Assembly (NCBI RefSeq): GCF_902706095.1
Contig: NZ_CACSJP010000009.1
Span: 1 to 64,000 of the forward strand
Length of the DNA stretch: 64,000 bases
Source: Rhizobium sp. 18065
GTDB taxonomy: Bacteria > Pseudomonadota > Alphaproteobacteria > Rhizobiales > Rhizobiaceae
Direction: 5' to 3'
The notes beneath the pieces were generated by a model. It was given only the letters and a program-made list of their open reading frames with translations, did not search any database and was not told where the DNA came from. Made by a program: the position numbers and the translations under genes. This document shows positions 571 to 51,500 of the stretch, in pieces; position 1 is the stretch's first letter; every line of letters starts with the position of its first letter.

Positions 571-645
571 ATGGCCAAGCAAATTGATCTCATGTTCCGG
601 ACGATGGTCGCTGAACTTCAGCAACGGGCATTCGATGACTGTTGA
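571..645 (+). pseudogene. N-terminal remnant of a nucleotidyltransferase-fold gene, cut by a repeat element
   Basis: ATG at 571 follows AAAGGACCT and encodes MAKQIDLMFRTMVAELQQRA and three more residues before running into the repeat element at 640 and stopping at 643-645. The peptide resembles, from memory, the N-terminus of the NTP_transf_8 / GSU2403-type nucleotidyltransferase-fold family. That assignment is tentative because only 23 residues remain. No continuation was seen after the element or next to the second copy near 51.5 kb, so the rest is probably deleted. It reads as a gene disrupted when the element inserted or when the island arrived. Confidence 0.45.
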
Positions 646-787
646 ATTTCAGCAGGATGTGATCCGTTTTTCCACGTTGCGCCGCCCCACCTAACCGGCA
701 GAACCGGCTGCTTCTAAACAAATATTTAGAGTTGAGCCGGGTCACGGCGCAATGAAAAACTGGATCAATCTCACCCGGTAATCAACA
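640..787 (+). repeat. 148-bp MITE-like element, copy 1 (left boundary of the island)
   Basis: It starts TGTTGA and ends TCAACA, giving short terminal inverted repeats. Inside lie larger imperfect inverted arms: TGATCCGTTTTTCCACGTTGC near the left end and, read from the right, TGATCCAGTTTTTCATTGCG. A closely similar copy in the same orientation is at 51354-51500. It has no coding capacity. The repeated internal arms resemble ends of IS21-family elements, so it may be a non-autonomous derivative or remnant; that is inference. No obvious target duplication was seen. Confidence 0.75.
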
Positions 788-1052
788 ACATAAGGCCTTA
801 TTTCTCGCACGATTCGATTGTTGTTAAAAACCTGTCCATCACGTACCCGACAAGCTCGACGGCGCAGGCTCCAGACAGGCATTCAAACGTATCACAAGCC
901 CGGTCCCAACGAAAAGAAGCCGAAATCGCGTCGTAGTGCTTCGCACAAGCCGGATGAGATCTCACCGCTGCCCTCCGAGGCATCGCTGCATCAGAAATGT
1001 TCGCCTCGGTGATATTTGTTGCTTCCATTGCTTAATCCATCGGTCAGAGGTG
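788..1052. other. Intergenic, no gene supported
   Basis: The 265 bp between the repeat and the 3' end of dnrN hold overlapping short open frames on both strands. One on the minus strand (798-1028, 76 codons) starts 24 bp after the dnrN stop and has a weak GGA ribosome site, but nothing in it is recognisable. It is not called as a gene. Confidence 0.4.
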
Positions 1053-1709
1053 TCAGGTCGTGTAACGGGGAAACAGAACTTCATTTTCCAGATGCATGTG
1101 CTGAACGAGATCTTCCACGAATTTTTTCAAACCAGCATACAGTACGTTCCAAGAGTTGCAGGCGCCAACCGGCGGAGCGAAGCCGTTGGTCAGATGTTCC
1201 AGGTTCACGACGTATAGAGCCTCGACTGCGTGCTCACGCTGCATCTGTGCGACCATGTGAACAATCGATACAGTGTCGCTGCGCGTCATCATCGGGAACA
1301 GCACAAGTTCTTCTTTTCGCATGTGCTCCTCCAGATCGCCTTGGATCCGTTGCAACAGGATCGCCAGACCGATCGGCGCTTCCGTATGCCCACCGTGGAC
1401 CCGCTCAACCTTCTGCGCCAGTGGAATGAGCCATTCCAACTCACTACGGTGAACTGCGTGATATCTTGTCAGAAGGCATTCTATTAGGTCCACGGTGTTT
1501 TCCGGCACGTCGCGCCGGGCTAAACATAGAAGTGTTTCCAGATCTCCTACCAGCGCGCCGGCGTCAATCCTCGCCTCTCCCGCTGCAGACTCGATCGTAG
1601 AGCCGCCACCACAACAAAAATTGATCCCGTGACGTCGAAAAAGATCGGCCGCGCCAGGAACCTCTGTTGCTACGCTTGCGACGGTTCGGCTAAGCTCGAT
1701 CTGCGTCAT
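1053..1709 (-). CDS. dnrN: RIC-family iron-sulfur cluster repair di-iron protein DnrN/YtfE/ScdA
   Basis: This 218-residue cytoplasmic protein belongs to the RIC family, which repairs Fe-S clusters damaged by nitric oxide. The N-terminal ScdA_N part has the FCCGGG motif at residues 31-36. The C-terminal half is a hemerythrin-like four-helix bundle with His and Glu pairs (RYHAVHRSE, HMRKEELVLFP, MQREH, HMHLENEVLFPR) that would hold the di-iron site. Length is normal for the family. The ATG follows GGGGAAGAGACC. An NnrR-type dyad lies 74 bp upstream (1783-1800), fitting NO induction. It is monocistronic: the next gene on this strand is ubiV, further upstream. Confidence 0.93.
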   Translation of the reverse strand: MTQIELSRTVASVATEVPGAADLFRRHGINFCCGGGSTIESAAGEARIDAGALVGDLETLLCLARRDVPENTVDLIECLLTRYHAVHRSELEWLIPLAQKVERVHGGHTEAPIGLAILLQRIQGDLEEHMRKEELVLFPMMTRSDTVSIVHMVAQMQREHAVEALYVVNLEHLTNGFAPPVGACNSWNVLYAGLKKFVEDLVQHMHLENEVLFPRYTT

Positions 1710-1782
1710 GGTCTCTTCCCCTATTGATGGTCGAAGACTGTCCCCAGCCTGAGTACCTCATGCCCGGCACCGCCGATTTGAT

Positions 1783-1800
1783 CGTTGTTCCGGCGCAAAC
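1783..1800 (-). promoter_or_regulatory. Degenerate NnrR/Fnr-type box upstream of dnrN
   Basis: CGTTGT-TCCGGC-GCAAAC matches the CTTTGC-N6-GCAAAG pattern seen before the nor genes with few changes. Its centre (1791.5) puts a start site near 1750 if activation is from -41.5, leaving a leader of about 40 nt to the dnrN ATG. Confidence 0.5.
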
Positions 1801-1891: not shown

Positions 1892-2815
1892 TCAGCGGGC
1901 GAAGGATGCGCTTTTTGCTTTGGCAATCCAGGCGGCCCCTTCTTTGGCGTGATGGAAACCGTTTGAGAACGGCGCCGTCGGATAGATGGCTCTAAGCCGA
2001 TCAAGAGCAGACTGGGAACCGAGACGCCGGTCCAGAGCTTCGCGGAAGGTTTTCGCAACCTCGACCATGTCGCAGTCCTGCGGAGACAGGCGCAGCGATC
2101 TGATTCCGGCATCCTGCATTTCCTCCAACTCATGCACCAGGGCCTGACAGGTGTGCGACATAGTCTGCACCCCGTTCAGGACGAGAAAGGATTGTCGATC
2201 AAGCGTCTTCAGTGACAGGCCATCAGGTTCCTCACCACAGACGAACTGACAATTGTCCTTTATCTTGCCCTTTGACCGTGCATGGGCGCACCGGGCGGAG
2301 ATCGCCAAGGGAATGCGTCCGAAGACGAAGACCTCGATCGTCGCGCCGGTCTCGGCTGCTGCAATCTGCGAGACAGAGGCGAATGGCAGTTCCGGCGGCA
2401 GGCAGATGCGCTCTGCCCCCCTTTCAGCGAGGAGCCGCGCGGTTGCGCTGTTGTAGACATTGACCAGCGGGCCGACAAGGTGCCGGCGTCCCTTGATGAG
2501 GCCGATCGCCGAAAGATCGTTGACCTCAATTGGGTAATCCGAGGTCTCGATTAGTTCGCGGACGAAACGGCTTTCGCGTTCCAGTGTCACCAGCGCGAGA
2601 GACGAGAAGACCACGGTCTTTCCGGCACGTTCCAGCCGCTCCACCACTTCGACCAGATGCGGTTCGATGAAATGCTGTCGTTTGGAGCATACGGTTTCGC
2701 CAATCACGACACGGTCGACTGGTGCTTCTTCGGCCACACGTAAATAGAAGTCACGCCACTTCGGGCCATCCCAAAGATAGTAGACAGGCCCCATCGTCAG
2801 TTCGGTCATCGTCAT
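1892..2815 (-). CDS. ubiV: UbiV, U32-family subunit for O2-independent ubiquinone hydroxylation
   Basis: This 307-residue U32-family protein is UbiV, partner of UbiU in the anaerobic hydroxylation steps of ubiquinone synthesis. Four cysteines lie where UbiV binds its 4Fe-4S cluster: C43 (ETVCSKRQ), C176 (SARCAHAR), C189 and C193 (DNCQFVCGEE). The ATG overlaps the ubiU stop by 4 nt, so UbiU and UbiV are translationally coupled. The operon order is ubiT-ubiU-ubiV, and it lies inside a denitrification island, which fits a need for ubiquinone without oxygen. The alternative, a generic U32 peptidase, is unlikely given the paired subunits and the cysteine pattern. Confidence 0.93.
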   Translation of the reverse strand: MTMTELTMGPVYYLWDGPKWRDFYLRVAEEAPVDRVVIGETVCSKRQHFIEPHLVEVVERLERAGKTVVFSSLALVTLERESRFVRELIETSDYPIEVNDLSAIGLIKGRRHLVGPLVNVYNSATARLLAERGAERICLPPELPFASVSQIAAAETGATIEVFVFGRIPLAISARCAHARSKGKIKDNCQFVCGEEPDGLSLKTLDRQSFLVLNGVQTMSHTCQALVHELEEMQDAGIRSLRLSPQDCDMVEVAKTFREALDRRLGSQSALDRLRAIYPTAPFSNGFHHAKEGAAWIAKAKSASFAR

Positions 2816-3789
2816 CTCCAGCGCTTCTCATAGGCGCCTACAGTCGTCTTCTGTCCTTCACTCATGGCCCTAAGGCGCGACAGAAGCGGTCCACGCGCCG
2901 CCGGTTCGGTGGACAGGGCCTGCCGGAGCGTCGACACGACCTCCGCGACATAGGCCTTGCCGCGCTGGCGTCCCTCGATCTTCAAGGCTGAGACACCGGC
3001 GGCTTTCAAAGCTTCGATCTCCCCCATCACATCGAGCGAGACGGGGTCTTCGAAGGCGTAGCCTTCAGCGTCTCCTATGTTGAAGCGGCCCTTGCACAGC
3101 GTGGGATAGCCGGCGGCCTCGGCCGGACCGAACCGGTTGATGGTGAAGGGCCCGAGTTCGGAGATCATCTGCGGGCCTTCCTTGCGGTAACGGACATGGC
3201 TCGCGGGCGAGCAGATGCCGTTCATGTTGGGTGACTTGCCGGTGGCGTAAGACGACAGCGAGCAACGCCCTTCGGCCATCACGCAGAGGCCGCCGAAGAC
3301 AAAGACCTCGATCTCGCACGCCACTTTCCTGCCGATCCGGGCGATGTCGGCGATGGTCAACGTGCGGGGTAGAACGACCCGTCTGGCGTTGAATGCCTCG
3401 ACGAGGAAATTGATCGCTTCAGGATTGGAAGCGGAGGCCTGAACCGAGACATGCAGCCTCTGCTCGGGATAGTGCTCCCGGACATGCGCCATCAGTCCGA
3501 AATCTGCCAGGATCAGGGCATCAGCCCCGAGCTTCACCGCGTCGGATGCTGCCCTGTACCAGATGTCTTCATCGCCGGCCCGCATGAAGGTGTTAAGCGC
3601 GACGAAGGTTTGGCAGTTTTTCCTGCGTGCATATGCGATCGCGTCCCGCAATTCCTCGGGACTGAAGTTGAGGCCCGGAAAGTTGCGGGCGTTCGTCTCA
3701 TCCTGAAAGCCGCAATAGACTGCATCAGCGCCGGCATCGACGGCTTCGCGAAACGCGGCCGGCGTACCGGCAGGACATATCAGTTCCAT
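2812..3789 (-). CDS. ubiU: UbiU, U32-family subunit for O2-independent ubiquinone hydroxylation
   Basis: This 325-residue U32-family protein opens with MELICPAGTPAAFREAVDAG, typical of UbiU. The four cysteines that bind the 4Fe-4S cluster fall at C169, C176, C193 and C232, matching the positions I recall for the E. coli protein. UbiU forms a heterodimer with UbiV and hydroxylates the ubiquinone ring with prephenate rather than O2 as oxygen donor. Its ATG directly abuts the ubiT stop, and its own stop overlaps the ubiV start, giving a tight ubiTUV operon. Confidence 0.95.
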   Translation of the reverse strand: MELICPAGTPAAFREAVDAGADAVYCGFQDETNARNFPGLNFSPEELRDAIAYARRKNCQTFVALNTFMRAGDEDIWYRAASDAVKLGADALILADFGLMAHVREHYPEQRLHVSVQASASNPEAINFLVEAFNARRVVLPRTLTIADIARIGRKVACEIEVFVFGGLCVMAEGRCSLSSYATGKSPNMNGICSPASHVRYRKEGPQMISELGPFTINRFGPAEAAGYPTLCKGRFNIGDAEGYAFEDPVSLDVMGEIEALKAAGVSALKIEGRQRGKAYVAEVVSTLRQALSTEPAARGPLLSRLRAMSEGQKTTVGAYEKRWR

Positions 3790-4299
3790 TCAAGCCATTT
3801 CCTTCAGTGCCCGGCGGCGGATTACCGTCGCCAGCTGTTCAAAGAGGGGAGCTGCCAGGCCGCCGATCCGTGAAAGGTCCTTGGGCAGGTCAATGTCGCA
3901 GTCATCGAGTGCATTGCGCAGAGCAAGCACCGCCTCCATGTCGCCGCTCACTTGCACATCGCGGGAAAAGAACAGGGCATCCGCATCGCAGCGACCTTCG
4001 AGAAGTGCCAGTAGCATGAAGAGCGGTGCCTCAACCCCGGCATCCGCAGTGAATGGGGCGCCCTTGCGCACGAGCGAGAGGCTGGGGTCCGCTGGCTTGA
4101 CGAGGAAGACCAGCGGCAGATCCGCCGGCGTGAACGAGAAGCTGCAGTTCCGGTACGCGCCCATGCGGTCGAACAGGTCGGGATGTGCGTCGAACAAGTG
4201 CCCGAACAGCTTCCGGGCCATGTATTCAACCGGCATGATGGGCAGGACGTCGATCGGCATGGCGAACAGGGGCATGAGGTGCATTCTGGTCGATTTCAT
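3790..4299 (-). CDS. ubiT: UbiT, SCP2-domain accessory factor of anaerobic ubiquinone synthesis
   Basis: The 169-residue product fits UbiT, a small SCP2-type lipid-binding protein that accompanies UbiU and UbiV. The N-terminal part is hydrophobic (LMPLFAMPIDVLPIMPVEYM); the SCP2-like core lies at about residues 60-135. It is the first gene of the ubiTUV operon and ends one base before the ubiU ATG. A hybrid Fnr-type box lies 45 bp upstream (4344-4357), implying a short leader of about 10 nt if activation is from -41.5. The gene is divergent from the UbiD-type decarboxylase gene. Confidence 0.88.
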   Translation of the reverse strand: MKSTRMHLMPLFAMPIDVLPIMPVEYMARKLFGHLFDAHPDLFDRMGAYRNCSFSFTPADLPLVFLVKPADPSLSLVRKGAPFTADAGVEAPLFMLLALLEGRCDADALFFSRDVQVSGDMEAVLALRNALDDCDIDLPKDLSRIGGLAAPLFEQLATVIRRRALKEMA

Positions 4300-4343
4300 T
4301 TGTGTCGGGAGGCGCAGACTAGTCGGCCCGACAGCCAGGCAGA

Positions 4344-4357
4344 TTGAGCCAGCGCAA
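4344..4357. promoter_or_regulatory. Hybrid Fnr/NnrR-type box between ubiT and the ubiD-like gene
   Basis: TTGAGCCAGCGCAA has the TTG-N8-CAA frame of Fnr-family sites and shares the CGCAA half with the boxes before pseudoazurin, 34806 and nosR. It is best placed for ubiT. For the ubiD-like gene a start site at -41.5 would fall near 4392, on or just after the likely start codon, so control on that side is less clear. Confidence 0.5.
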
Positions 4358-4382
4358 AGACGCCAGCGATTTCACGGGCCAT

Positions 4383-5897
4383 ATGCAAACCATGACTTAC
4401 ACCGCCCCCCGCCGTCGCTATGACGGGCTTCAAGCCTTTCTCGAAGAACTCGAACTGCGAGGCCTACTCGTCCGCATCACTCCGCCGGTCAGTCTGATGC
4501 ACGAGGTGACCGAGATTCACCGCCGGGTGATCAGAGAGGATGGGCCAGCGCTGTTGTTCGAAAATCCTGTTGGCGCTGATGGCTCTCCGGCTTGCATGCC
4601 GCTTGTCGCCAATCTCTTCGGCACGCGCGAGCGTATTGAACTGGGCTTCGGCATTGGTGCGGGTGAAATTGGCAGCCTTGCCGCGTTGCTGGCTGATCTG
4701 CGCGAGCCGAGACCGCCGACCTCGCTGCGGGATGCCATCAGGAAACTGCCCCTGCTACAGTCGGCCTTGTCGTTGGGATGCCGCCGAGTATCGCGGGCAC
4801 CGTGCCAGGAGGTCGTGCGGCGAGGAACAGAGATCGATCTTTCTCGACTGCCGATCCAGTGGTGCTGGCCGGGCGAGCCGGCGCCGCTCGTCACCTGGCC
4901 GCTCGTCATCACCTCGTCGCCGACCGATCCGACAGATGTGAATGTCGGCGTCTATCGGCTGCAGGTGCTCGGCCGCGATCGCCTGATCACCCGCTGGCTG
5001 GCGCATCGAGGTGCTGCTCGGCATCATAGGCAATGGCAGTTGCTGGGGAAAGACATGCCGGTTGCGGTTGTGATCGGCGCAGATCCGCAGACCATTCTGT
5101 CTGCGGTCATGCCGCTACCGGAATCGATGAGCGAACTTGCCTTTGCGGGCGTCTTGCGGCGTAGGCGTAGCCGTGTGGTGCGTGCGATCACCCAGCCTCT
5201 CGACATTCCGGCCACAGCTGAGATCGTGCTTGAGGGCAGCGTGTCGGTCTCCGAAACTGCCCTTGAAGGCCCCTACGGGGACCACACCGGATACTACAAC
5301 TCCGTGGAGAGTTTCCCGGTCATGTCACTGAGTGCCATAACCATGCGCAGAGACCCGATCTATCTGTCGACCTTCACCGGCCGGCCGGCCGACGAACCTT
5401 CTGTTCTGGGAGAGGCGATGAACGACTTGTTCGTGCCGCTGGTGAAGCGGCAGTTTCCCGAGATTATCGATCTGTGGCTGCCGCCAGAAGCCTGTTCCTA
5501 TCGTGCAATCGTGGTTTCGCTCGACAAGCGGTATCCCGGCCAGGCCCGTCGCGTCATGCTGGGACTGTGGTCGATGCTGCCACAGTTCAGCTACACCAAA
5601 CTGATCATCGCCGTCGATCCGGATATCGACGTGCGCAACTGGAGCGACATCGTATGGGCCTTGTCGACGCGTTTCGATGCGTCACGAGACATGGTTACGG
5701 TGTCCGACACACCCATTGACTACCTCGACTTCGCCTCGCCGAAAGCGGGGCTGGGCGGCAAGCTCGGTCTCGATGCGACGAACAAGTTTGGGGCCGAAAC
5801 CGACCGGGAATGGGGGAGGGTGCTGCATATGAGCCCGGAAGTGTCTGCGAAAGTGGACCGTATCTGGACTGAACTCGGCATTGGAGAAGCGCGATGA
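4383..5897 (+). CDS. ubiD: UbiD-family prenylated-FMN-dependent decarboxylase
   Basis: The 504-residue product is a UbiD-family enzyme that would decarboxylate the polyprenyl-hydroxybenzoate intermediate of ubiquinone synthesis with the prenyl-FMN cofactor made by UbiX. Family landmarks include the N-terminal FLEELELRGLLVRI, GPYGDHTGYYN and the C-terminal GLGGKLGLDATNKFGAE. The 4-nt overlap with ubiX and the divergent ubiTUV operon support the pathway. ATG 4383 is chosen; an upstream TTG at 4344 lies inside the regulatory box and is rejected, while ATG 4392 is possible. Other UbiD members act on different aromatic acids, so the substrate is inferred from context. Confidence 0.85.
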   Translation: MQTMTYTAPRRRYDGLQAFLEELELRGLLVRITPPVSLMHEVTEIHRRVIREDGPALLFENPVGADGSPACMPLVANLFGTRERIELGFGIGAGEIGSLAALLADLREPRPPTSLRDAIRKLPLLQSALSLGCRRVSRAPCQEVVRRGTEIDLSRLPIQWCWPGEPAPLVTWPLVITSSPTDPTDVNVGVYRLQVLGRDRLITRWLAHRGAARHHRQWQLLGKDMPVAVVIGADPQTILSAVMPLPESMSELAFAGVLRRRRSRVVRAITQPLDIPATAEIVLEGSVSVSETALEGPYGDHTGYYNSVESFPVMSLSAITMRRDPIYLSTFTGRPADEPSVLGEAMNDLFVPLVKRQFPEIIDLWLPPEACSYRAIVVSLDKRYPGQARRVMLGLWSMLPQFSYTKLIIAVDPDIDVRNWSDIVWALSTRFDASRDMVTVSDTPIDYLDFASPKAGLGGKLGLDATNKFGAETDREWGRVLHMSPEVSAKVDRIWTELGIGEAR

Positions 5898-6463
5898 AGA
5901 GGCGCGTCATTCTCGGGATCTCCGGGGCGTCCGGCGCTTCGATTGGCCTTCGGATCGCACAGATCCTGGGCGGGATGGTAGACGTGGAACTGCATCTTGT
6001 GTTGACATCGGCGTCTCGACGGACAATTGCCCATGAAGCCGGCCCCCAAGCGCTGGGACGCCTGATCGATATTGCCGATCATTTTCACTCCGACGGCGAT
6101 ATCGGTGCTACCATCGCCAGTGGTTCATTCCGCACAGCTGGCATGATCGTCGCGCCTTGCTCGATGCGCTCGCTCGCGGCCATCGCCTCGGGTTTCACCG
6201 ATAATCTGCTGACAAGGGCCGCCGACGTCCAGCTTAAGGAGCGGCGGCGTCTGGTGCTTCTCGCCCGTGAAACGCCACTCCATCTCGGCCATCTGCGCAA
6301 CATGGTCTCCGTGACGGAAATGGGGGCCATCGTCATGCCGCCGGTCGCTGCCTTCTATCGCAATCCGATGTCGGTCGATGAGCTCGTTTCCGATATCGCC
6401 GCGCGCGCAGTCGACTTGCTCGGACTTTGCGATACGCCGCTCATTGCCGAATGGCAGGGATAG
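5894..6463 (+). CDS. ubiX: UbiX-type flavin prenyltransferase
   Basis: This 189-residue flavoprotein of the UbiX/Pad1 family joins a dimethylallyl group to FMN to make the prenyl-FMN used by UbiD. The N-terminal Rossmann-like motif LGISGASGASIGLRI and the later APCSMRSLAAIASGFTDNLL and RRRLVLLARETPLH are characteristic. The ATGA overlap with the preceding decarboxylase gene indicates translational coupling. It converges on the nnrS gene that follows, with 15 bp between stops. A housekeeping ubiX probably exists elsewhere in the genome; this copy seems dedicated to the anaerobic set. Confidence 0.93.
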   Translation: MKRRVILGISGASGASIGLRIAQILGGMVDVELHLVLTSASRRTIAHEAGPQALGRLIDIADHFHSDGDIGATIASGSFRTAGMIVAPCSMRSLAAIASGFTDNLLTRAADVQLKERRRLVLLARETPLHLGHLRNMVSVTEMGAIVMPPVAAFYRNPMSVDELVSDIAARAVDLLGLCDTPLIAEWQG

Positions 6464-12867: not shown

Positions 12868-13023
12868 CTACTGTCCGATAAAAAGGATGAAGGCGATCGC
12901 CACGGAGGCCCCGATGGCCGTTATCGTTCCAGCGGGCTGGAGAACGCCCATGCGGTGGAGCATGAGTGCGAAAACCATGATTGCCGGGGTGGCCACCAGG
13001 AGGCCAATCTGTGCATCGGTCAT
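12868..13023 (-). CDS. Small two-helix membrane protein of the nor region
   Basis: A 51-residue protein with two hydrophobic segments (IGLLVATPAIMVFALMLHRM and TITAIGASVAIAFILFIG) joined by a short GVLQPAG turn. ATG 13023 is chosen because TAAGG lies 8 bp upstream; ATG 13032 would sit on that site. It is the first gene of an operon with the hemerythrin gene (9 bp apart) and nnrU, divergent from norE across a perfect NnrR box. I do not recognise a named family. It may be a subunit or assembly factor for a membrane complex. Confidence 0.65.
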   Translation of the reverse strand: MTDAQIGLLVATPAIMVFALMLHRMGVLQPAGTITAIGASVAIAFILFIGQ

Positions 13024-38642: not shown

Positions 38643-40925
38643 ATGTTTTCGAGATGGGGTTGTAGTATGCGGCGGACAAGACTCCGCTTAGGTTCGGATT
38701 TTCGAACGGGACTTGAGAGAATGCTGGCGGCCACGTTGTTGGTGTCATCGACGGCAATCGGCGGAGCACTTGCACAGTCGGCCGCGCCCGGGGCAGGCAC
38801 TGTGCTAGACACCATCGTCGTGAAGGCAAAGCGCGATGGATCGCCTGCGGCCATTGCGGAACGGCTCCGTGCGGTGCCAGGTGGGGTCTCGCTGGTGTTG
38901 ACCCAAGACTATTCGTCGCTTGTCGCCCCAACTCTGTCGGATGCCCTAGCCTCCGCGCCAGGTGTCATCGTTCAGAATTTCTTCGGCGCCAACGATCAGC
39001 CACGTGTGCAGATCAGAGGTTCGGGTCTTCAACAGAATCCTGTTGAGCGCGGCATACTGATGCTACGCGACGGACTTCCGATCAATCGGGCCGACGGATC
39101 CTATATAGTCGGCTTTGCCAATCCGGGAGCCGCCGATGCGATTGAAGTCTATCGCGGTTACGTGGCGAACCGGCTGGGTGCCACCGTGCTGGGTGGGGCG
39201 ATCAATTTCATGTCTGCCAATGCGTCGGCAGCGCCCGGCACCGAACTGACGGTCGGTGGTGGCAGTTTCGGTCAGCTCGGCACCTCGGGACAAACCGCCT
39301 ATGAGGGGGATCGTTTTGATGCGACACTCCATTTCGACGTCACGCGCCGCGATGGTTTTCGCGACTACAATGGATCCGAGCGGATCGAGGTCGGCGGCAG
39401 CATAGCTTCGGAACTGTCTGACTTCGTCACGACAAGGCTGTTTTTCGGGTATACGGATCTCGGCTTCGACGTAGCCGGGCCGATCAACAAGGGTGCGCTT
39501 GAAGCAGACCCGTCCCAAGTCTCTAACGGCCCCCTGGTCACACCTGCGGGTGTAATTAATCCCGGGCCGAACGTCGCACGAGACAAACCCCGACGGGATG
39601 CCAGCCAGTATTTGATTGGTTCTCGCACGACGATCGATCTCGGTGAGCATCAGTTCGACCTGGGCCTCGGCTACACGTATACTGACGACACATTCCGCTT
39701 CCCTGTCTCTTCAGGCATTCGCGACACTAGCGGTGGAGATCTGACTGGAATGATGCGGTATGCCTATTCACCGGACACCGATCGTCTGTTGCCGCTGTTT
39801 GAAACGACGGCCCAATATACAATCGGCTCGGCCGAACGGCGCTATTATCTTAACCAGTCGGGACTGCAAGGCGCACTTTTTGGCGAGAACGATCTTGATG
39901 CCTCGACGCTCTCGCTCCATTCCGGTTTCAACATTCCGCTCGCCGACAACTGGAGCATTTCACCGGCGCTTTCCTATGCGCATGCGACCCGCAGCAGCGA
40001 TGACACCTATTCATCCGCGACAAGACCGACAATCGCCTACAATCCGGCAAACCCGACGATCCGTCTGCTGAACGGGACAGTGCCGACAGGGAGCACGGCT
40101 TACGATAGCAGCTATGATGCCTGGAGTCCGAGCCTCGGAGTAACGTTCGAGCCAACACCGGATCAGATCCTGTTTGCCGCCGTGAGCCGGAGTTTCGAAC
40201 CTCCGACCCATGATGACCTGCTCGCCACGGTTAACGGCACGCCGAATAGCAGTCCGGGACGTCCGACGCCCGGAAATCCATCGCTGGCAGCAGCAGCATT
40301 CTCGACCCCGGATCTTGAGGCGCAAACCGCAACGACAGCCGAGCTTGGCTGGCGCGGAAACCTGGGTGGCTTGAGTTGGGACGCGACCACCTATTACGCA
40401 TGGGTCGACAATGAGTTACTCAGCCTGCGAGATGCGACTGGTGCCTCGCTTGGCGCGATCAATGCGGACCAGACGCGGCATTTCGGAATTGAGCTCGGCC
40501 TTACCGCCGAGCTGTATGACGGGTTGATGGGACGTCTGGCCTACACCTATCAGGATTTCAGGTTTCACGATGATGTATTACGGGGAAACAATCGACTGGC
40601 AGGCGCGCCTCGACACGTTTTCAATGCCGCATTCTCCCATCAGGCGACAGAAGACTGGTCGTTTGGCACAAGCGTAAAATGGGTCCCGGACAGAACCCCT
40701 GTCGACAACATGAACTCCCTGTGGGCAGACCCGTATGCCGTGATAGACCTCAAGACCGAATACCGCATCAACGATCATCTGTCGGTGTTTGGCGAAGTCA
40801 CAAATGTGTTCAACGAAACATATGCTTCATCCACTCTTATTGTCGACCAGGCAACGCCGAACCAGGCGGCCTTTCTACCTGGCGACGGTCGTGGCTTCTA
40901 TCTCGGCGTGAAAAGCCAGTTCTGA
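38643..40925 (+). CDS. TonB-dependent outer-membrane receptor (FecA-like)
   Basis: A 760-residue receptor. N-terminal signal (MLAATLLVSSTAIGGALAQ) is followed by the TonB box DTIVVKAKR. The plug domain shows LSDALASAPGVIVQNFFGAN and RVQIRGSGLQQNPVERGILM; the beta barrel ends with FLPGDGRGFYLGVKSQF, with the terminal aromatic residue typical of barrels. It resembles receptors for siderophores or ferric citrate. No FecA-type signalling extension is seen. ATG 38643 or 38670 are both possible. An NnrR-type box lies upstream. Confidence 0.9.
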   Translation: MFSRWGCSMRRTRLRLGSDFRTGLERMLAATLLVSSTAIGGALAQSAAPGAGTVLDTIVVKAKRDGSPAAIAERLRAVPGGVSLVLTQDYSSLVAPTLSDALASAPGVIVQNFFGANDQPRVQIRGSGLQQNPVERGILMLRDGLPINRADGSYIVGFANPGAADAIEVYRGYVANRLGATVLGGAINFMSANASAAPGTELTVGGGSFGQLGTSGQTAYEGDRFDATLHFDVTRRDGFRDYNGSERIEVGGSIASELSDFVTTRLFFGYTDLGFDVAGPINKGALEADPSQVSNGPLVTPAGVINPGPNVARDKPRRDASQYLIGSRTTIDLGEHQFDLGLGYTYTDDTFRFPVSSGIRDTSGGDLTGMMRYAYSPDTDRLLPLFETTAQYTIGSAERRYYLNQSGLQGALFGENDLDASTLSLHSGFNIPLADNWSISPALSYAHATRSSDDTYSSATRPTIAYNPANPTIRLLNGTVPTGSTAYDSSYDAWSPSLGVTFEPTPDQILFAAVSRSFEPPTHDDLLATVNGTPNSSPGRPTPGNPSLAAAAFSTPDLEAQTATTAELGWRGNLGGLSWDATTYYAWVDNELLSLRDATGASLGAINADQTRHFGIELGLTAELYDGLMGRLAYTYQDFRFHDDVLRGNNRLAGAPRHVFNAAFSHQATEDWSFGTSVKWVPDRTPVDNMNSLWADPYAVIDLKTEYRINDHLSVFGEVTNVFNETYASSTLIVDQATPNQAAFLPGDGRGFYLGVKSQF

Positions 40926-42440: not shown

Positions 42441-42496
42441 GGATCCCCTTCGACGAAGGTTCCAATGCTTCGGTGACGATTTGCAGGAATGTTGGA

Positions 42497-44653
42497 ATGA
42501 AAATCTACCGTCTGGTCCTTTTGCTGTGTGCCACACTTTGCCTTGCGGTTTCGGCCAGCGCGGCGACGGTGTTGCACCAGTATCTGCCTGCGGCAACCGC
42601 CTCGGATCTCGTTCCGGGCGCAGAGGCGTTCGGTCCCGTGCGCGAGGATATCGCCGTTGCACCGGTACTGAAGGACGGGCAAACCGTCGCTTGGGTATTC
42701 GTCACATCGGATTTCGTCGGCACGACGGGCTACTCCGGAAAGCCAATTCACACGCTTGTGGCGGTGGACATGGACGCGAAAATCATCGGCGTCCAGTTGA
42801 TAAAGCACTCGGAGCCCATCGTTCTGATTGGCATTCCGGAAGCGAAGGTCAAGGCTCTGGTCGCCGGCTACGCCGGCCTCGATCTGGTCGCTGAAGCAAA
42901 TTCCGGCGGCACGGCCCATGAGGTTGATATCATCTCCGGCGCGACGGTGACGGTTATGGTGATCGACGATTCCATCGTCCGTTCAGGACTGAAGGTCGCT
43001 CGTGCGCTCGGTCTTGGCGGCTTGACGACGAAAGCGCAGGATGCTGGACCGCGCTTTGTAATTGCCCCCGATGCCGCACCTCCCGTCGACTGGGTCGAGG
43101 CCGAGGGCGATGGCACTCTCCGACGGCTGTCGCTGGACGTGGCCCAGGTCAATAGCGCTTTCGCTGGGCATCCCGATGCGCGCGCCGGTGAGCGCGCGCT
43201 GACGGAACCGCAGGAAACGACTTACATTGACATGCATGCTGCCCTGGTTTCCGTGCCAGCCATCGGCAAGGCATTGCTCGGCTCCGCCGAAGAGACCAAT
43301 CTCAATGCCTGGCTGGGGCAGGGCGAAAGCGCTATCGCCTTGGTAGGACGCGGGCTCTATTCGTTCAAGGGCTCGGGCTACGTGCGCGGCGGCATCTTCG
43401 ATCGCATCGTCCTAATCCAGGATGATGTCTCCGTCCGCTTTCGTGACCGCGACCATCGTCGTCTCGGCAGTATCGCCCTTCCTGGAACGCCAAACTTCAC
43501 CGAAATGGATCTCTTCCGCATACCCGCAAATGTTGGCTTCGATCCGAGCAAGCCGTTCCGCATCCAGCTTCTGGCGCATCGCGAGGTAGGCCCAATCGAA
43601 AAGGTCTTCCATACTTTCGATCTCGGCTACCAGCTACCGCAGAAATATCTGAAGGCTGTCGCGGCACCGGTGAAAAATGTCGAGACCGTCGTTGACCGGG
43701 ATGAGGGAACGGCGCAGGCGAATTTGTGGAAACGCATCTGGGCCGACAAGACACTGGAGATTGCGGTCCTTGGCTCCATGCTGTTCGTGCTGACCGGTGT
43801 CTTCTTCTTCCAGACCTACGCGGTCCAAAACGCCAGAGGATTTTACATCTTCCGCATTCTTTTCCTGACGGTGACGCTCGTCTTCCTTGGGTGGTATGCC
43901 AACGCCCAGCTGTCAGTGGTCAATCTGATGGCGCTGTTCGGCAGCCTCGTCACCGGCTTCAGCTGGCAGGCCTTTCTGCTCGATCCGATGACTTTCATTC
44001 TCTGGTTCTCAGTTGCGGCAGCTCTACTGTTCTGGGGACGTGGTGCCTATTGTGGCTGGCTTTGCCCATTCGGCGCCCTGCAGGAACTGACCAACCAGAT
44101 CGCCCGCAAGCTGCGCATCCCACAATGGACACTCCCCTGGGGGCTGCATGAGCGGTTGTGGCCGCTCAAATACATGATTTTCCTAGGTCTGTTCGGGGTC
44201 TCATTGATGAGTGTCGAACAAGCCGAGCATCTGGCCGAGATAGAACCGTTCAAGACCGCGATCATACTGAAGTTCATCCGCGCCTGGCCGTTCGTGGCTT
44301 ACGTGGCAGCACTTCTTGTTGCCGGGCTTTTCGTTGAACGCTTCTACTGCCGCTATCTATGCCCTCTGGGAGCAGCACTCGCGATCCCGGCGCGCATGCG
44401 CATGTTCGATTGGCTCAAGCGCTACCATGAGTGTGGAAGTCCCTGCCAGACCTGCGCCAATCAATGTCCGGTACAGGCGATCCACCGAACCGGCGAGATC
44501 AACCCGAACGAGTGCATCAACTGCCTGCACTGTCAGGTGCTCTACCAGTCCGAAAGCGTCTGCCCCGTCGTGATCAAGAAGATGAAGTCGCGGGCAAAAA
44601 TCGCGGCAAGCCCTGGGATTAGTCCGGTTCACCAATCTGCAGCACAAGTCTAA
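42497..44653 (+). CDS. nosR: NosR, flavin and iron-sulfur membrane protein for N2O reductase
   Basis: A 718-residue protein needed for N2O respiration. Signal ([17 protein letters not shown]), a periplasmic FMN-binding domain with the flavinylation-type motif SGATVT (about residue 146), then membrane helices and a cytoplasmic polyferredoxin end with [35 protein letters not shown] and [12 protein letters not shown]. It is thought to carry electrons or act in NosZ maturation, with flavin added by an ApbE-type enzyme such as NosX. ATG 42497 is chosen; an upstream start at 42473 leaves no leader. Confidence 0.96.
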
Positions 44654-44672
44654 GCAAAAAAGGAAGTCGATT

Positions 44673-46601
44673 ATGGAAATGAATGACAAAAAGGGTCTGA
44701 GCCGGCGGGAGCTGTTCAGTGCCACGGCAGGTACAGCCGTCCTAGCCAGTACGGTGGGCACTGCTGCGCTCGGCCTAGGCGCTACGACCTTGGCAACTTC
44801 GGCCCGCGCTGCGACAGGAGGCGAAGGTTCTGTCGCACCCGGCAAGCTAGACGACTATTATGGATTCTGGTCATCGGGCCAGACCGGTGAGATGCGCATC
44901 CTCGGCATTCCCTCCATGCGCGAGTTGATGCGCGTACCGGTGTTCAACCGCTGCTCTGCCACCGGCTGGGGGCAGACAAATGAATCGATCCAGATCCATC
45001 AGCGCACGATGTCGGAGAAGACGAAGAAGCAACTTGCCGCCAATGGCAAGCAGATCCACGACAACGGTGACCTGCACCACGTCCACATGTCCTTTACCGA
45101 GGGTAAGTATGACGGCCGCTTCCTGTTCATGAACGACAAGGCGAACACGCGCGTCGCCCGCGTACGCTGCGACGTGATGAAGACCGACGCAATTCTGGAA
45201 ATCCCGAATGCCAAGGGTATCCACGGCTTGCGTCCGCAAAAATGGCCGCGCTCCAATTACGTCTTCTGCAATGGCGAAGACGAGGCGCCGCTGGTCAACG
45301 ACGGTTCGACCATGACCGACGTGTCGACCTATGTAAACATCTTCACTGCAGTCGATGCCGACAAGTGGGACGTGGCTTGGCAGGTCAAGGTATCGGGGAA
45401 CCTCGACAATTGCGACGCCGACTACGAAGGCAAATGGGCGTTCTCGACCAGCTATAATTCGGAAATGGGCATGAACCTCGAGGAAATGACCAAGTCTGAG
45501 ATGGACCATGTCGTCGTCTTCAACCTCGCCGAAATCGAGAAGGCAATCGCCGCCGGCCGCTTCGAGGAGATCAATGGCGTCAAGGTCGTAGATGGCCGCA
45601 AGGAAGCGAAGTCCCTCTTCACCCGTTACATCCCGATCGCCAATAATCCGCACGGCTGCAACATGGCGCCGGACAAGAAGCACTTGTGCATTGGCGGCAA
45701 GCTTTCGCCAACTGTCACCGTTCTTGACGTGACGAAGTTCGACGCGTTGTTCTACGACAATGCCGAGCCACGCAGCGCAGTTGTGGCAGAGCCAGAACTC
45801 GGCCTTGGACCGCTACACACAGCTTTCGACGGACGCGGCAATGCCTACACATCGCTCTTCCTCGACAGCCAGGTGGTGAAGTGGAATATCGACGAGGCCA
45901 TCCGTGCGTACGCCGGCGAGAAGGTCGATCCGATCAAGGATAAGATCGATGTCCAATACCAGCCCGGTCATTTGAAGATCGTGATGGGCGAGACGCTTGA
46001 TGCGGCAAACGACTGGTTGGTGTGCCTTTGCAAATTCTCCAAAGACCGCTTCCTGAATGTCGGACCGCTGAAGCCGGAAAACGACCAGCTCATTGACATC
46101 TCCGGCGACAAGATGAGGCTGGTGCATGATGGCCCGACTTTTGCCGAGCCTCACGATGCCATCGCCGTCGCGCCCTCGATCTTGCCAAACATCCGTTCAA
46201 TCTGGGAGCGCAAGGATCCGATGTGGGCCGAAACGCGTAAGCGGGCCGAGGCCGACGACGTCAATATCGATGAGTGGACGGATGCGGTTGTCCGCGATGG
46301 CAACAAGGTACGCGTCTACATGACCTCTGTAGCTCCTGCGTTCAGTCTGGAAAGCTTTTCCGTGAAGGAGGGTGACGAGGTTACTGTCATCGTCACCAAT
46401 CTCGACGAGATCGATGATCTCACTCACGGCTTCACAATGGGCAATCATGGTGTCGCGATGGAGATTGGTCCACAGCAGACGAGTTCGGTCACCTTCGTCG
46501 CGGCGAATCCGGGTGTCTATTGGTACTATTGCCAATGGTTTTGCCATGCGCTGCATATGGAAATGCGAGGACGCATGTTTGTCGAGCCGAAGGACGCCTG
46601 A
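44673..46601 (+). CDS. nosZ: Nitrous oxide reductase NosZ
   Basis: A 642-residue periplasmic multicopper enzyme reducing N2O to N2. The twin-arginine signal [11 protein letters not shown] shows Tat export, placing it in the clade I type. Seven-bladed propeller His ligands for CuZ are seen in [35 protein letters not shown] and EPHDAIAV; the CuA cupredoxin end carries GNHGVAMEI and [16 protein letters not shown]. Full length. Confidence 0.98.
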
Positions 46602-46604
46602 TCC

Positions 46605-47933
46605 ATGCGGTTCTCTGTTCTCCTGATCGGGCTTGTTCTCACCTCGCCGCTTGCGGCTGAGGAGCGTTCGATCGCACCGGGAACAGGCAGCCTTGCAGTC
46701 GCCATCGCCGGGGCAGCCCCCGGCGATGTGCTGAGATTGAAAGACGGAACCTATACAGGTCCCGTTGTCATCGACCGGGCGCTTTCCGTCATCGGCCCGC
46801 GAGGGGCGGTGGTGGACGGGCAAGGGTCAGGCAGCGTGGTTACAATCAGCGCGACCGACGTGACTTTGACAGGGTTCACTGTCACCGGCTCGGGCCGCAT
46901 CAACCAGGACCTTGATGCGGGTGTGAAGATCCTGGAAGGGGCCGATCGGGTACGTGTGGAAAAATTGCTCGTCGCCGGCAATATGCATGGCATCGATGTA
47001 CATGGAGGTCGCGACGCCGCCGTCATCGGCAACGAGATCATCGGCACGGACAGCCCGCGGATGAACGAGCGGGGAAACGGCATCTATGTCTGGAACAGCC
47101 CCGGCACACTGCTGGAAGGCAACTCCATTCGCTACGGTCGCGACGGCATATTCTCCAATGCCAGTTCGAACAGCATCTATCGCGGCAATATCATGCGCGA
47201 CCTGCGCTTTGCCGTGCACTTCATGTATACGCGAAATACCGAGGTTTCCGGCAACATCTCGATCGGCAATCATCTTGGCTTTGCCATCATGTTTTCCGAC
47301 CGGGCCAGGATCATCGACAATCTCAGCCTCGGCGACCGCGAACACGGGCTAATGCTGAACTATGCCAACAATGCCGATGTCACCGGCAATCTGGTGCGCG
47401 GCGGCACGAAGAAATGCCTGTTCATCTACAACGCCCACAAGAATCTCATCTGGGAAAACCGGTTCGAGGGTTGCGGTATTGGCCTTCACTTTACCGCGGG
47501 CTCGGAGAAGAACGTGCTGACCGGCAACGCGTTCATCGCCAATCGCGAGCAGGTCAAGTATGTCGGCACCCGGAACATGGAATGGAGCCATGAGGGCAGG
47601 GGCAATTTCTGGTCTGATCATCCGGCTTTCGACCTCGACGGCAACGGAAGAGCCGACAGCTTCTACCGGCCAAACGATGTTATGGATCAAATCCTGTGGT
47701 CACAACCTGCGGCCAGCCTGTTGATCGGTTCGCCGGCCGTGCAGCTCGTGCGCTGGAGCCAGCGGGATTTTCCGGCCACGCTTCCAGGCGGCGTCCGCGA
47801 TAGTTCCCCCTTGATGCGCCCCCTAACCATAGCGGTTCCCTCTAGAATTCTCGGGTACGAAGCCGAGGCTGCCGGTCGTTGGGCCGAAGGAAATTACGAT
47901 GACACCGACGCTGACGATCTCTCGACTCACTAA
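46605..47933 (+). CDS. nosD: NosD, periplasmic beta-helix protein for CuZ assembly
   Basis: A 442-residue protein with a signal peptide (FSVLLIGLVLTSPLAAEE) and a right-handed beta-helix made of carbohydrate-binding-type repeats (for example GNEIIGTDSP, GNSIRYGRDG, GNISIGNHLG). NosD works with the ABC pair NosFY in building the CuZ sulfide centre of NosZ. Starts 3 bp after nosZ; its 3' end overlaps nosF by 35 nt. Confidence 0.95.
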   Translation: MRFSVLLIGLVLTSPLAAEERSIAPGTGSLAVAIAGAAPGDVLRLKDGTYTGPVVIDRALSVIGPRGAVVDGQGSGSVVTISATDVTLTGFTVTGSGRINQDLDAGVKILEGADRVRVEKLLVAGNMHGIDVHGGRDAAVIGNEIIGTDSPRMNERGNGIYVWNSPGTLLEGNSIRYGRDGIFSNASSNSIYRGNIMRDLRFAVHFMYTRNTEVSGNISIGNHLGFAIMFSDRARIIDNLSLGDREHGLMLNYANNADVTGNLVRGGTKKCLFIYNAHKNLIWENRFEGCGIGLHFTAGSEKNVLTGNAFIANREQVKYVGTRNMEWSHEGRGNFWSDHPAFDLDGNGRADSFYRPNDVMDQILWSQPAASLLIGSPAVQLVRWSQRDFPATLPGGVRDSSPLMRPLTIAVPSRILGYEAEAAGRWAEGNYDDTDADDLSTH

Positions 47934-48798
47934 GCGCTTCCAGTCCGTCGATGCGCTGAGGGATGTCTCGCTGACATTGCAGCCAGGGATGCGCGCAGCC
48001 TTGCTCGGCCATAACGGTGCGGGCAAATCGACGATGATGAAGATCATCCTTGGCCTCATTCCGTTCGACAGCGGAGACGTTTCGGTCTGCGGCGAGGCGC
48101 CGGGGTCGCCGGCTGCGCGCACGCAGGTTGCCTATCTGCCGGAGAATGTCGCCTTTCACCCGGCGCTCACCGGCGACGAGCAGGTCCGCCATTATCTGGC
48201 GCTGCGCGGAGAAAACCCGCGCGAAGCAACAGCACTTCTGGCGCGTGTCGGTCTCGCGCACGCTGCGCGGCGGCGGATCGGCACCTATTCCAAAGGCATG
48301 CGTCAGCGCGTCGGTCTCGCACAGACACTCATCGGTCGCCCTCGTCTCCTCGTGCTCGACGAGCCTACCTCGGGTCTCGACCCGGTTTCGCGGCGGGATT
48401 TCTACGACCTGCTCGATGGACTGGCCGCCGACGGAACCGCTATCCTTCTCTCCTCTCACGTGCTGACCGAGGTGGAAGCGCGCACGGACAGCATCCTGAT
48501 CCTGTCCGGTGGTGCTCTGGTAGCGGAAGGTACCCTTGCCGAACTCAGAACCCGCGCTGCTCTCCCGATCGTCCTTCTTGTTCGCCCGGCGGACGGTCAT
48601 GAACTCACGCTGGCAGCGGCATTTCCGGAAGCATCCGTCGGTGCCGATGGCCTGCTGCATCTGTGCTGCGCGCAAGCGGAGAAACTACCACTTCTCGCAC
48701 GTATCACTGCACGGGGCGCAGAGGTCGCAGATCTGGATGTCGTCCCGCCGAGCCTCGAAGATATTTATAGCCATTTCAGCCGGAGAGACGGGCAATGA
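47899..48798 (+). CDS. nosF: NosF, ABC ATPase for NosZ maturation
   Basis: A 299-residue ABC ATPase with Walker A GHNGAGKST, signature YSKGMRQRVGLAQTL, Walker B LLVLDEPTSGLDP and the H-loop ILLSSHVL. It pairs with the permease NosY and with NosD. ATG 47899 lies inside nosD, and the stop overlaps the nosY ATG. Confidence 0.95.
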   Translation: MTPTLTISRLTKRFQSVDALRDVSLTLQPGMRAALLGHNGAGKSTMMKIILGLIPFDSGDVSVCGEAPGSPAARTQVAYLPENVAFHPALTGDEQVRHYLALRGENPREATALLARVGLAHAARRRIGTYSKGMRQRVGLAQTLIGRPRLLVLDEPTSGLDPVSRRDFYDLLDGLAADGTAILLSSHVLTEVEARTDSILILSGGALVAEGTLAELRTRAALPIVLLVRPADGHELTLAAAFPEASVGADGLLHLCCAQAEKLPLLARITARGAEVADLDVVPPSLEDIYSHFSRRDGQ

Positions 48799-49616
48799 GC
48801 AGAATCATCGCCACCGCGATCTCGGAATTCAGCATTGCCTTCCGCAATCGCTGGGTCTCGATTGCTACCGGCATGATGGTGCTGTTTGCACTTGTGCTTG
48901 CTGCGGCCGGATCCGCCCCGACGGGCGATGTCGGCGTGGACCGGCTGTCCGTGACCGTCGCCTCCCTCACTTCGTTGGCCGTCTATCTCGTGCCGCTCCT
49001 TGCGTTGCTGATGAGTTTTGACGCCGTGGCGGGCGAGGTAGAGCGCGGGACACTTCCGCTACTCCTCACCTATCCTGTCTCTCGCCTGCAGATCCTGCTC
49101 GGCAAGCTCCTGGCGCATCTGGCAATCCTCGCGCTTGCGGTGACCCTGGGTTATGGCGCAGCAACGCTTGTAGCCGTCTGGTCCGATCAGGACGCGATCC
49201 AGGGAATGGGCTCGCTGTGGCGGTTGATCTGGTCCTCGGTTCTGCTCGGCGCTACCTTTCTCGGCGCCGGCTATGCGCTTTCGTCGTTGGCGAGGCGCCC
49301 GTCCGGTGCCGCGGGTCTTGCGATCGCGCTCTGGCTGGTTGCTGTGGTGCTTTACGATCTGGCGCTTCTGGCGCTGATCGTTACCGATAGCGGCGGCGCC
49401 TTCACGACGCAGGCATTGCCTTTCGCCTTGCTCGCAAATCCGGCCGATGCCTTTCGCGTCTTCAACCTCTCGGCAGGCGAGGCTGTCGCAGCCGCCGGCG
49501 GAATTGGCGGGGCGGCAGGTGCCATTCCCCTCTGGCAATCGGCCGCCTCGCTTGTCCTCTGGCCACTCGTCGCCATTGCGATTGCAGTTGCCGCGTTCCG
49601 AAAGGTGACCCCATGA
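48795..49616 (+). CDS. nosY: NosY, ABC permease for NosZ maturation
   Basis: A 273-residue ABC-2-type permease with about six helices (VSIATGMMVLFALVLAAAGS, LTSLAVYLVPLLALLMSFDA with the conserved VAGEVERGTLPLLLTYPVSR). Coupled by 4-nt overlaps to nosF and nosL. Confidence 0.94.
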   Translation: MSRIIATAISEFSIAFRNRWVSIATGMMVLFALVLAAAGSAPTGDVGVDRLSVTVASLTSLAVYLVPLLALLMSFDAVAGEVERGTLPLLLTYPVSRLQILLGKLLAHLAILALAVTLGYGAATLVAVWSDQDAIQGMGSLWRLIWSSVLLGATFLGAGYALSSLARRPSGAAGLAIALWLVAVVLYDLALLALIVTDSGGAFTTQALPFALLANPADAFRVFNLSAGEAVAAAGGIGGAAGAIPLWQSAASLVLWPLVAIAIAVAAFRKVTP

Positions 49617-50230
49617 CAAAAGCTATGAGAAACCCGATGATACCGTCGCTGGGTGCAGGCCTTCGCTCCTTGTTGTTTGTTGTCTCGCTCGCACTTCTGC
49701 CTGCCTGCCAGCGTGACGAAGTCCAGAACGTCACGCCGCAAGACATGACGGCGGAAACTCTCGGCCATTACTGCCAGATGAACCTGCTGGAGCATCCGGG
49801 TCCGAAAGCGCAGGTGTTTCTCGAAGGCAATCCTGCGCCACTCTTCTTCAGCCAGGTGCGCGATGCAATCGCCTATATGCGCGGTCCCGAGCAGATGGCG
49901 CCGATCGTTGCTGTTTACGTCAACGACATGGGAGCCGAGGGCGCGACCTGGGATCGGCCCGGCGACGGCAACTGGTTCGCGGTCGACAAGGTCGTCTACG
50001 TTGTCGGTTCGACCCGTATGGGTGGGATGGGTGCTCCGGAGACAGTGCCGTTTTCCAGCAGGGAGAAAGCCGAGGCCTTCGCCTTGGCTGATGGTGGACG
50101 ATTGCTGACATTGGCTGAAATTACCGACAACATGGTTCTGGCGCCGGTCGAAACCGAGCCGGAGCAAGACGGTTTTGACGCGGATTTTCAAAGTCGCCTA
50201 CGTGCCCTGCCCAACCAAGCTGGAGGATAA
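49613..50230 (+). CDS. nosL: NosL, copper chaperone lipoprotein
   Basis: A 205-residue lipoprotein with lipobox LLPACQ after the hydrophobic SLLFVVSLALLPA. The CQMNL motif corresponds to the Cys-x-Met copper-binding site of NosL. It delivers Cu(I) to NosZ assembly. ATG 49613 overlaps nosY by 4 nt, and nosX begins 3 bp after the stop. Confidence 0.93.
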   Translation: MTKAMRNPMIPSLGAGLRSLLFVVSLALLPACQRDEVQNVTPQDMTAETLGHYCQMNLLEHPGPKAQVFLEGNPAPLFFSQVRDAIAYMRGPEQMAPIVAVYVNDMGAEGATWDRPGDGNWFAVDKVVYVVGSTRMGGMGAPETVPFSSREKAEAFALADGGRLLTLAEITDNMVLAPVETEPEQDGFDADFQSRLRALPNQAGG

Positions 50231-50233
50231 TCC

Positions 50234-51163
50234 ATGCCTATAACCCGTCGCCGTCTTATCAGTATCTCTGCTGCCCTTGCCATCCTTCCTGCAACCGCGC
50301 GTGCCGCGACGCATTCAATCCGCCACTGGACAGGGCAAGCACTTGGCGCGCGCGCCTCGGTCCGGCTCGACCATCCAGAGGGCGAAGCCATCGCCGGCCG
50401 GGTCATGGCAGAAATCAACCGGCTGGAAGACATTCTTAGCCTGTATCGCCCGGACAGCGCTCTGGTCACCCTCAATCGAGACGGCCGGCTTGCCAATCCG
50501 CCCTTCGAACTGCTGGAATGCCTGTCGCTGGCCAGTGCGATACACAAGGCGAGCAGCGGGCGCTTCGATCCTACAATACAACCGCTCTGGGCTCTCTGGG
50601 CCGAAGCTGCCGCCCGGGGTGAGCGACCCAATGCTCGAGCGATAGAAGTTGCAAGACGCAATGTCGGCTGGCCCATGGTTCGGCTGGATACGTCTGTGAT
50701 CACAATGAACCCGGGCATGGCAATGACGCTCAACGGAATTGGTCAAGGCTACGTAGGAGACCGTGTGGCTGCGTTGCTGGAGGCTGAAGGCTTGACCGAC
50801 ATTCTGATCGACACAGGCGAGTGGCGCGCGCTCGGCGGTCGCCCCGGCGGCGGTGAATGGCCGGTCCGGCTGGAATCGGGCGAGCGACTGGGCCTGCGTC
50901 AACGCGCGCTCGCTACGTCAGCCCCGTTCGGCACGACCTTCGACCAGACCGGCAAGGACGGGCACATCCTCGATCCCGCAACGGGCATGCCCACACCTGC
51001 GCCATGGCATATGGTATCGATCTCCGCTTCCTCTGCAGCGGTTGCCGATGCGCTCGCAACAGCTGCCTGCCTTATGCCCGACATAAGGTCGATGGAATCG
51101 CTAATTGAGGGGTTCTCTGATGCGCGGTTGGAGGCCAGGGTGTTGATTTTCACTGAGAAGTGA
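50234..51163 (+). CDS. nosX: NosX, ApbE-family FMN transferase
   Basis: A 309-residue exported flavin transferase with an N-terminal signal (RRRLISISAALAILPATARA), the ApbE core NGIGQGYVGDRVAALLEAEG, LIDTGEWRALGG and the Asp-containing DKTGKDGHIL-like region (DQTGKDGHILDPATG). It attaches FMN to the NosR periplasmic domain. Last gene of nosRZDFYLX and of the island. Confidence 0.95.
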   Translation: MPITRRRLISISAALAILPATARAATHSIRHWTGQALGARASVRLDHPEGEAIAGRVMAEINRLEDILSLYRPDSALVTLNRDGRLANPPFELLECLSLASAIHKASSGRFDPTIQPLWALWAEAAARGERPNARAIEVARRNVGWPMVRLDTSVITMNPGMAMTLNGIGQGYVGDRVAALLEAEGLTDILIDTGEWRALGGRPGGGEWPVRLESGERLGLRQRALATSAPFGTTFDQTGKDGHILDPATGMPTPAPWHMVSISASSAAVADALATAACLMPDIRSMESLIEGFSDARLEARVLIFTEK

Positions 51164-51353
51164 CCCAGCGATGGAGTGAACCCCTCGGGCTGGACCACGG
51201 GAAACGGAAAGACTGACACACTGTGCGGGCCTCAATCGGAGAAGGCTCGTGAAGTCCCGAGGTCCATATCGACGCCGTTCAAATTGTAGCATACTCAGCA
51301 CTCTTGGCGTCTCGACCACCCAGTTGAGCGTGGGCCGCGCGTCAAGCATCGCC

Positions 51354-51500
51354 TGTTGAATTTCAGCAGGATTTGATCCGTTTTTCCACGTTGCCCGCCC
51401 CACCTAGACCGGCGTAACCATCCGCTTATAAACACATATTTAGAGTTGTGCCGGGTCACGGCGCAATGAAAAACTGGATCAATCTCCCCGGTACTCAACA
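51354..51500 (+). repeat. 147-bp MITE-like element, copy 2 (right boundary of the island)
   Basis: Same orientation and high similarity to 640-787, with identical TGTTGA and TCAACA ends and the same internal inverted arms. It lies 190 bp past nosX. Left and right flanks differ from those of copy 1, and no target duplication is visible. Confidence 0.75.

Follow-up and report, generated by a model that had tools for sequence, protein, structure and literature searches.

Denitrification genes between two copies of a short repeat

The window analysed here covers 64,000 nucleotides from Rhizobium sp. 18065, the opening 64 kb of contig NZ_CACSJP010000009.1 (hereafter C9; 189,168 bp). It carries a denitrification cluster between two copies of a 148-bp element; two families of direct repeats are listed in the window, and this is the longer one. 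A sequence-only reading had described the two copies as pointing the same way and sharing their ends and internal arms, which we confirm (91% identity on alignment), and had placed nir, nor, nap and nos genes, together with quinone, haem, molybdopterin and uptake functions, between them. Hidden Markov model (HMM) scans of 60 window open reading frames (ORFs), from which the gene families were assigned, bear this out: copies 1 and 2 enclose genes for quinone, molybdopterin and uptake functions as well as nor, nirK, nap and nos genes (Table 1). It was further proposed that this island moves or is excised as a unit through the repeats. As set out below, the element, which is best called a miniature inverted-repeat transposable element (MITE), is probably not the boundary of a mobile island; its copies, together with other insertion sequence (IS) remnants, more plausibly mark the seams of a plasmid built from blocks.

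The plasmid carrying the cluster

When the contig ends were compared, bases 1-127 of C9 proved identical to bases 189042-189168, and dnaE2 homology spans the joint. Since the ends are identical over 127 bp and dnaE2 reads across them, we take C9 as a circle of 189,041 bp. The flanks of the cluster, which had been regarded as unrelated, with dnaE2 on one side and a decayed aldolase gene on the other, are therefore parts of one plasmid. The dnaE2 gene does lie on the left, but decay of the aldolase is not evident, because its frame stays open over 358 codons and encodes a class II aldolase domain, and among the 62 other genomes of the genus 4 hold a match of about 1.0 kb.

The RepA, RepB and RepC proteins of C9 are 99.5%, 95.2% and 98.0% identical, respectively, to those of plasmid unnamed2 of Rhizobium sp. 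SL42 (NZ_CP063399.1). Aligned to the SL42 proteins, repA, repB, repC, traI, trbB and trbI are full length on C9 and trbE, trbL, traG and traB nearly so, all without stops. C9 is a circular repABC plasmid with Ti-type tra/trb genes: the circular replicon, repABC, tra and trb are all present. The homology of the relaxase gene traA lies in two pieces (C9:73046-76636, outside the window), so the gene is possibly broken or divergent in its middle. Nothing indicated an integrase-type island or an integrative and conjugative element, as neither a tRNA or tmRNA gene in the window nor an integrase family among the 60 ORFs was found, and an Rfam search of the window gave no match.

A 148-bp element with IS21-type ends

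A genome search gave four copies of the element, three of them on C9 in one direction, rather than the many scattered copies that the sequence-only reading had named as a reason to abandon its proposal. Copies 1 and 2 both have TGTTGA...TCAACA ends and long imperfect inverted arms, and copy 1, taken as single-stranded DNA, is predicted to form one long hairpin that beats 200 of 200 shuffles (z -5.7). The longest exact run common to copies 1 and 2 is 37 bp, and no pair of copies shares more than 41 bp. At both ends of copy 1, TGTTGA occupies positions 1-6 and TGATCC positions 21-26; the same spacing separates TGTTGA from TGACCC in two plasmid elements annotated with istA/istB (L201 and L202). 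An end of this type also occurs in a third region (L200), in which istA/istB annotation is lacking. Because its end motifs recur at the istA/istB spacing, the element is best called a low-copy MITE with IS21-family-type ends. It is short and non-coding with terminal inverted repeats, and 16 of the 17 tabulated copies measure 147-150 bp and one 156 bp; copy 3 (whose end is missing), L104 (whose ends were unrecognised) and pattern matches without a recognised right end were left out of this table.

The target duplications expected of a MITE are largely absent. An exact duplication of at least 4 bp flanks 1 of the 17 copies (shuffled mean, 0.11), and the three own-genome copies with both ends intact have none; decay or rearrangement is a possible cause. 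The sole tabulated copy with a clear 5-bp duplication, CCGTG, is in SL42 (L161, G035:C3:147471). As read by eye, the istA/istB element L201 has a 9-bp duplication and L202 has none.

No autonomous parent with the same ends was found, istA/istB being absent from the 5 annotated records examined among 44 plasmid left-end matches; for the pattern matches in the genus, the 170 bases after each were examined for such an element. An istB gene beside the C14 copy was considered as the parent and rejected, since no MITE-like end was seen by eye between the two. In the genomes G022, G034 and G035, some MITE-family left ends (L158, L160, L169 and L172) pass into other IS-type sequence within 22-27 bases, as if the TGACCC box of IS21-type ends were a recurrent insertion site; we presume that the inserted elements belong to the IS3 family.

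The element is sparsely distributed. It matches at E<=1e-8 in 7 of 63 genomes of the genus, our own included, and a looser end pattern occurs in 13 of the 63; the former scan overlooked divergent copies in the relative G045, which the end-pattern scan later caught. Members of about 148-156 bp are found in plasmids of Agrobacterium, Ensifer and Rhizobium. At the family level, a MITE scan at E<=1e-6 gave 7 of 394 genomes, again including our own, and these counts are lower bounds because at most two candidates were scored per genome (two of the four in our own). An exact pattern scan of genome contigs gave one locus, in Ciceribacter sichuanensis S101. Searches for empty sites returned the known loci: for the lone copy of A. 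tumefaciens CFBP6624, the one record among 405 to cover most of the query is the copy itself; for that of A. vitis, 2 of 127 records do so, the plasmid itself and a twin; and among the matches listed for our C14 copy, both flanks are spanned only by its own locus.

Plasmid copies lie close to block edges, and two cut genes

Alignments of 1 kb or more with seven relatives gave 84 block ends on C9, computed after the fact. All three plasmid copies lie within 0.3 kb of a block edge, the nearest end being 26, 267 and 192 bp from copies 1, 2 and 3, respectively; positions no more than 300 bp from such an end make up 17.4% of the plasmid. For copies 1 and 3, the left end coincides exactly with the point at which a gene is cut. 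The fragment at copy 1 comprises the first 23 codons of a nucleotidyltransferase-fold gene that is open and full length in G035, G056, G060 and G061, and its remainder is not on C9 and has no other match elsewhere in the genome assembly (96% complete, 31 contigs). To the right of the copy, G045 homology restarts at 814. At copy 3, a duplicate of the 3' end of the EamA gene (53038-53308, repeated at 68293-68552) stops exactly at the left edge of the element (68552|68553), the remainder of the duplicate is not found beyond the copy on the plasmid, and homology to the tra-side backbone of SL42 resumes just to the right. Near copy 2, nos-block homology ends at 51072-51087, short of the copy, in five relatives (G003, G011, G023, G045 and G062), and the sequence to its right (51502-51872) has no relative in the genus nor among the best 8 of 58 plasmid matches.

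An alternative history would have the MITE copies insert independently after the plasmid was assembled, at the dispensable edges of blocks, with later deletions removing gene parts, so that the element played no building role. The copies in other genomes, which are mostly single and in unrelated contexts, agree with such a history, as do the presence of only three copies on C9 and the position of copy 2 beside, not at, the end of the nos block. Independent insertion fits poorly, however, with two left edges that match gene cuts to the base while the other gene parts are not found in the assembly (copy 1) or on the plasmid (copy 3), and with the return of G045 homology so close to copy 1. The lack of target duplications also speaks against it, but weakly, given that 16 of the 17 copies lack them. 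We consider this history unlikely, though far from negligible.

Relatives carry the cluster with other borders

C9 164386-178918 matches SL42 NZ_CP063399.1 90353-104865 (93.7% identity), and C9 68884-69927 matches 106771-107817 of the same plasmid (91.2%). Because these flanking matches are only 1.9 kb apart in SL42, about 79 kb of C9, from 178919 through the joint to 68883, is absent at this place in the SL42 plasmid, and the ends of this segment differ from copies 1 and 2. The SOS block lies elsewhere in SL42, inverted.

On contig C34 of G045, the cluster (814-51076) lies 3.6 kb beyond a backbone block corresponding to C9 168181-179632; its order is retained, and most of nap is missing. In G045:C34 91001-95300 no MITE-like match is better than E 0.89, and 143401-150000 has none at E<=1. 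Farther along C34, two direct MITE-family copies lie 2.7 kb apart (197111-197259 and 199837-199985). The ubi/nor/nir and nos parts are present in G003, G062 and G023 at about 66-80% DNA identity, with middle parts of the cluster missing, moved or inverted, and only the nos part was seen within the 70 kb examined in G011. Because the cluster is reshuffled in relatives and has MITE-free borders in G045, it is not a fixed unit and is not tied to the MITE; the relatives reshuffle their denitrification genes internally, without MITEs at the cluster borders.

These comparisons bear directly on the proposal of a 51-kb unit that has copies 1 and 2 as its ends and moves or excises either as a composite transposon or through recombination of the repeats. 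The whole cluster is indeed bracketed by direct copies, and the SL42 plasmid lacks the region, so the proposal is supported insofar as the cluster lies in a segment that is missing at this place in SL42, with transposon remnants at or near the edges. That the copies themselves are its ends, however, is not supported: a check for an empty site gave a plasmid without the region, but what is absent is the larger segment with other ends. The finding of the same genes in relatives without the repeats at these sites, which had been named beforehand as refuting the proposal, is provided by G045, whose cluster adjoins the same backbone block. The longest exact run between copies 1 and 2 was judged a poor substrate for recombination. 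A composite transposon would call for an outer target duplication, which is lacking (..GATGAC to the left of copy 1 versus ATAGCA.. to the right of copy 2), and for a transposase in the flanking elements, which 148 bp cannot encode. Across the genus, NosZ occurs in 16 and the MITE in 7 of the 63 genomes, with both in 2 versus 1.8 expected; in the second such genome, G019, the two are on different contigs. A 51-kb unit bounded by the copies is thus very unlikely. Hardly tenable is the idea that the repeated element led to a misassembly. The draft status of the assembly and an end overlap of 127 bp, typical of short-read assemblers, might suggest it, but no exact run shared by the copies exceeds 41 bases, well below that 127-base overlap, and homology to relatives is found separately on one or both sides of each copy.

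Probable seams of a block-built plasmid

Taken together, the gene cuts, the block edges and the borders in relatives lead us to favour, with some confidence, a plasmid built from blocks in which the MITEs and other IS remnants form the seams. The blocks would be backbone; SOS/repair; denitrification; aldolase/EamA/glutamate dehydrogenase; and tra/rep/trb backbone. The MITE copies and other IS remnants may have helped to join them, either when copies on different molecules recombined or when DNA next to a copy was deleted, and the DNA to the right of the copies would have been replaced during joining. A bolder version, in which the element repeatedly acted as portable homology, all three block joints (among them the one that brought a full denitrification pathway up to the repair block) being made at copies with the right-side DNA replaced each time, strikes us as doubtful. 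From the gene content of C9, the denitrification genes would have spread with the plasmid by conjugation, and they probably travel with it rather than as a MITE-bounded unit.

Several points weigh against the seam reading. The figure of 17.4% overstates the surprise, because the block ends were set after the copies had been seen and both favour intergenic spots, and copy 2 is 0.27 kb off the end of nos-block homology, beside another IS remnant. The joint in the SL42 plasmid contains an HlyD fragment and an IS5 element, so the site in SL42 is not cleanly ancestral, and which way the change went is unproven. G045 itself has four pattern matches elsewhere, including two divergent copies on C34 about 54 kb to the right of the cluster. 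Recombination between copies should be rare, given their short exact runs, and the lack of target duplications says little about rearrangement in a family where nearly all copies lack one. Finally, the missing gene part could lie outside the assembly, as the genome is incomplete and in contigs.

Whether a strain can make or remove N2O depends on gene sets like this one, and the carrier here looks like a whole block-assembled plasmid with transfer genes. Until relatives have been compared, repeats on either side of a cluster argue only weakly for a mobile island. Should the joints have been built by MITEs, then tiny non-coding elements, and not transposases, would have determined how a metabolic plasmid is laid out.

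Gene content of the cluster and its flanks

The remaining features are collected in Table 1. From gene order, we take the nor region to be norECBQD; its large last ORF has no family match. The nirV-like ORF is presumably nirV, judging by its position. In the right flank, two glutamate dehydrogenase sequences (55700-56496 and 62949-63746) form an inverted pair, one of them partial, that is 69.5% identical.

Table 1 Features of the window and further copies of the element (assignments by HMM where indicated)
Feature	Position	Strand	Remarks
dnaE2 3' end	1..277	+	continues over circular contig end; imuA-imuB-dnaE2 from C9:183874
GSU2403-family nucleotidyltransferase-fold gene, first 23 codons	571..639	+	ends exactly at copy 1 (639|640); name from SL42 annotation
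MITE copy 1	640..787	+	148 bp, TGTTGA...TCAACA
ytfE/ric-type iron-sulphur repair gene	1053..1709	-	HMM; near left end of block
ubiV, ubiU, ubiT, ubiD, ubiX	1892..6463	ubiV, ubiU, ubiT -; ubiD, ubiX +	HMM; anaerobic quinone genes
nor region	12887..18738	+	HMM; oxidase subunit III-like, cytochrome c, subunit I-like, MoxR/GvpN-type ATPase
hemN	between copies 1 and 2		HMM
nirK, nirV-like ORF, Crp/Fnr regulator, pseudoazurin	22709..26163	+	HMM; nirV-like ORF by position
napD, napA, napB, napC	26918..31148	+	HMM
mog, chemotaxis receptor, iron/haem-type ABC transporter, TonB receptor	31183..40925		HMM
nosR, nosZ, nosD, nosF, nosY-like, nosL, apbE/nosX	42473..51163	+	HMM; nosF by position only
IS remnant between nosX and copy 2	51140..51290	+	IS21-type end, then start of IS3-family element
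MITE copy 2	51354..51500	+	147 bp
Class II aldolase-type gene	51874..52950	-	HMM; first gene right of copy 2
EamA transporter gene	53177..54070	-	HMM
MITE copy 3	C9:68553-68692	as copies 1 and 2	last 9 bp missing; outside window
MITE copy 4	C14:69903-70051		on another contig

Comparison with known systems

A literature search found no published description of this MITE family; RIME elements of rhizobia were considered, their sequences uncompared. The closest known kind comprises MITEs with IS21-family-type ends, non-autonomous derivatives of istA/istB elements: the 148-bp element is too short for a transposase and has imperfect terminal inverted repeats, a TGTTGA end and a TGAYCC box at the istA/istB spacing. 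As described in PMC11578231, MITEPye1 of Paracoccus yeei is likewise low-copy (1-3 in chromosomes), prefers intergenic sites and can fold into a long stem-loop, whereas its ends are like those of the IS1182 family and it has direct repeats at its borders.

Plasmid-borne alphaproteobacterial denitrification clusters offer a further comparison: nosZ DNA matches occur in 138 of 72,556 plasmid records, the best at 85.6% identity, and the 148-bp element occurs in 3 records of the same collection, none of them among the 40 of the 138 nosZ matches listed. The closest repABC/Ti-type plasmid is unnamed2 of SL42, whose rep/trb and tra blocks are collinear with C9 but which has no denitrification genes (there is no NosZ in the SL42 genome) and lacks the 79-kb segment at this place. 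Such plasmid mosaicism is of a known kind; in this case the plasmid combines transfer genes with a denitrification cluster and, along its seams, remnants derived from IS elements.

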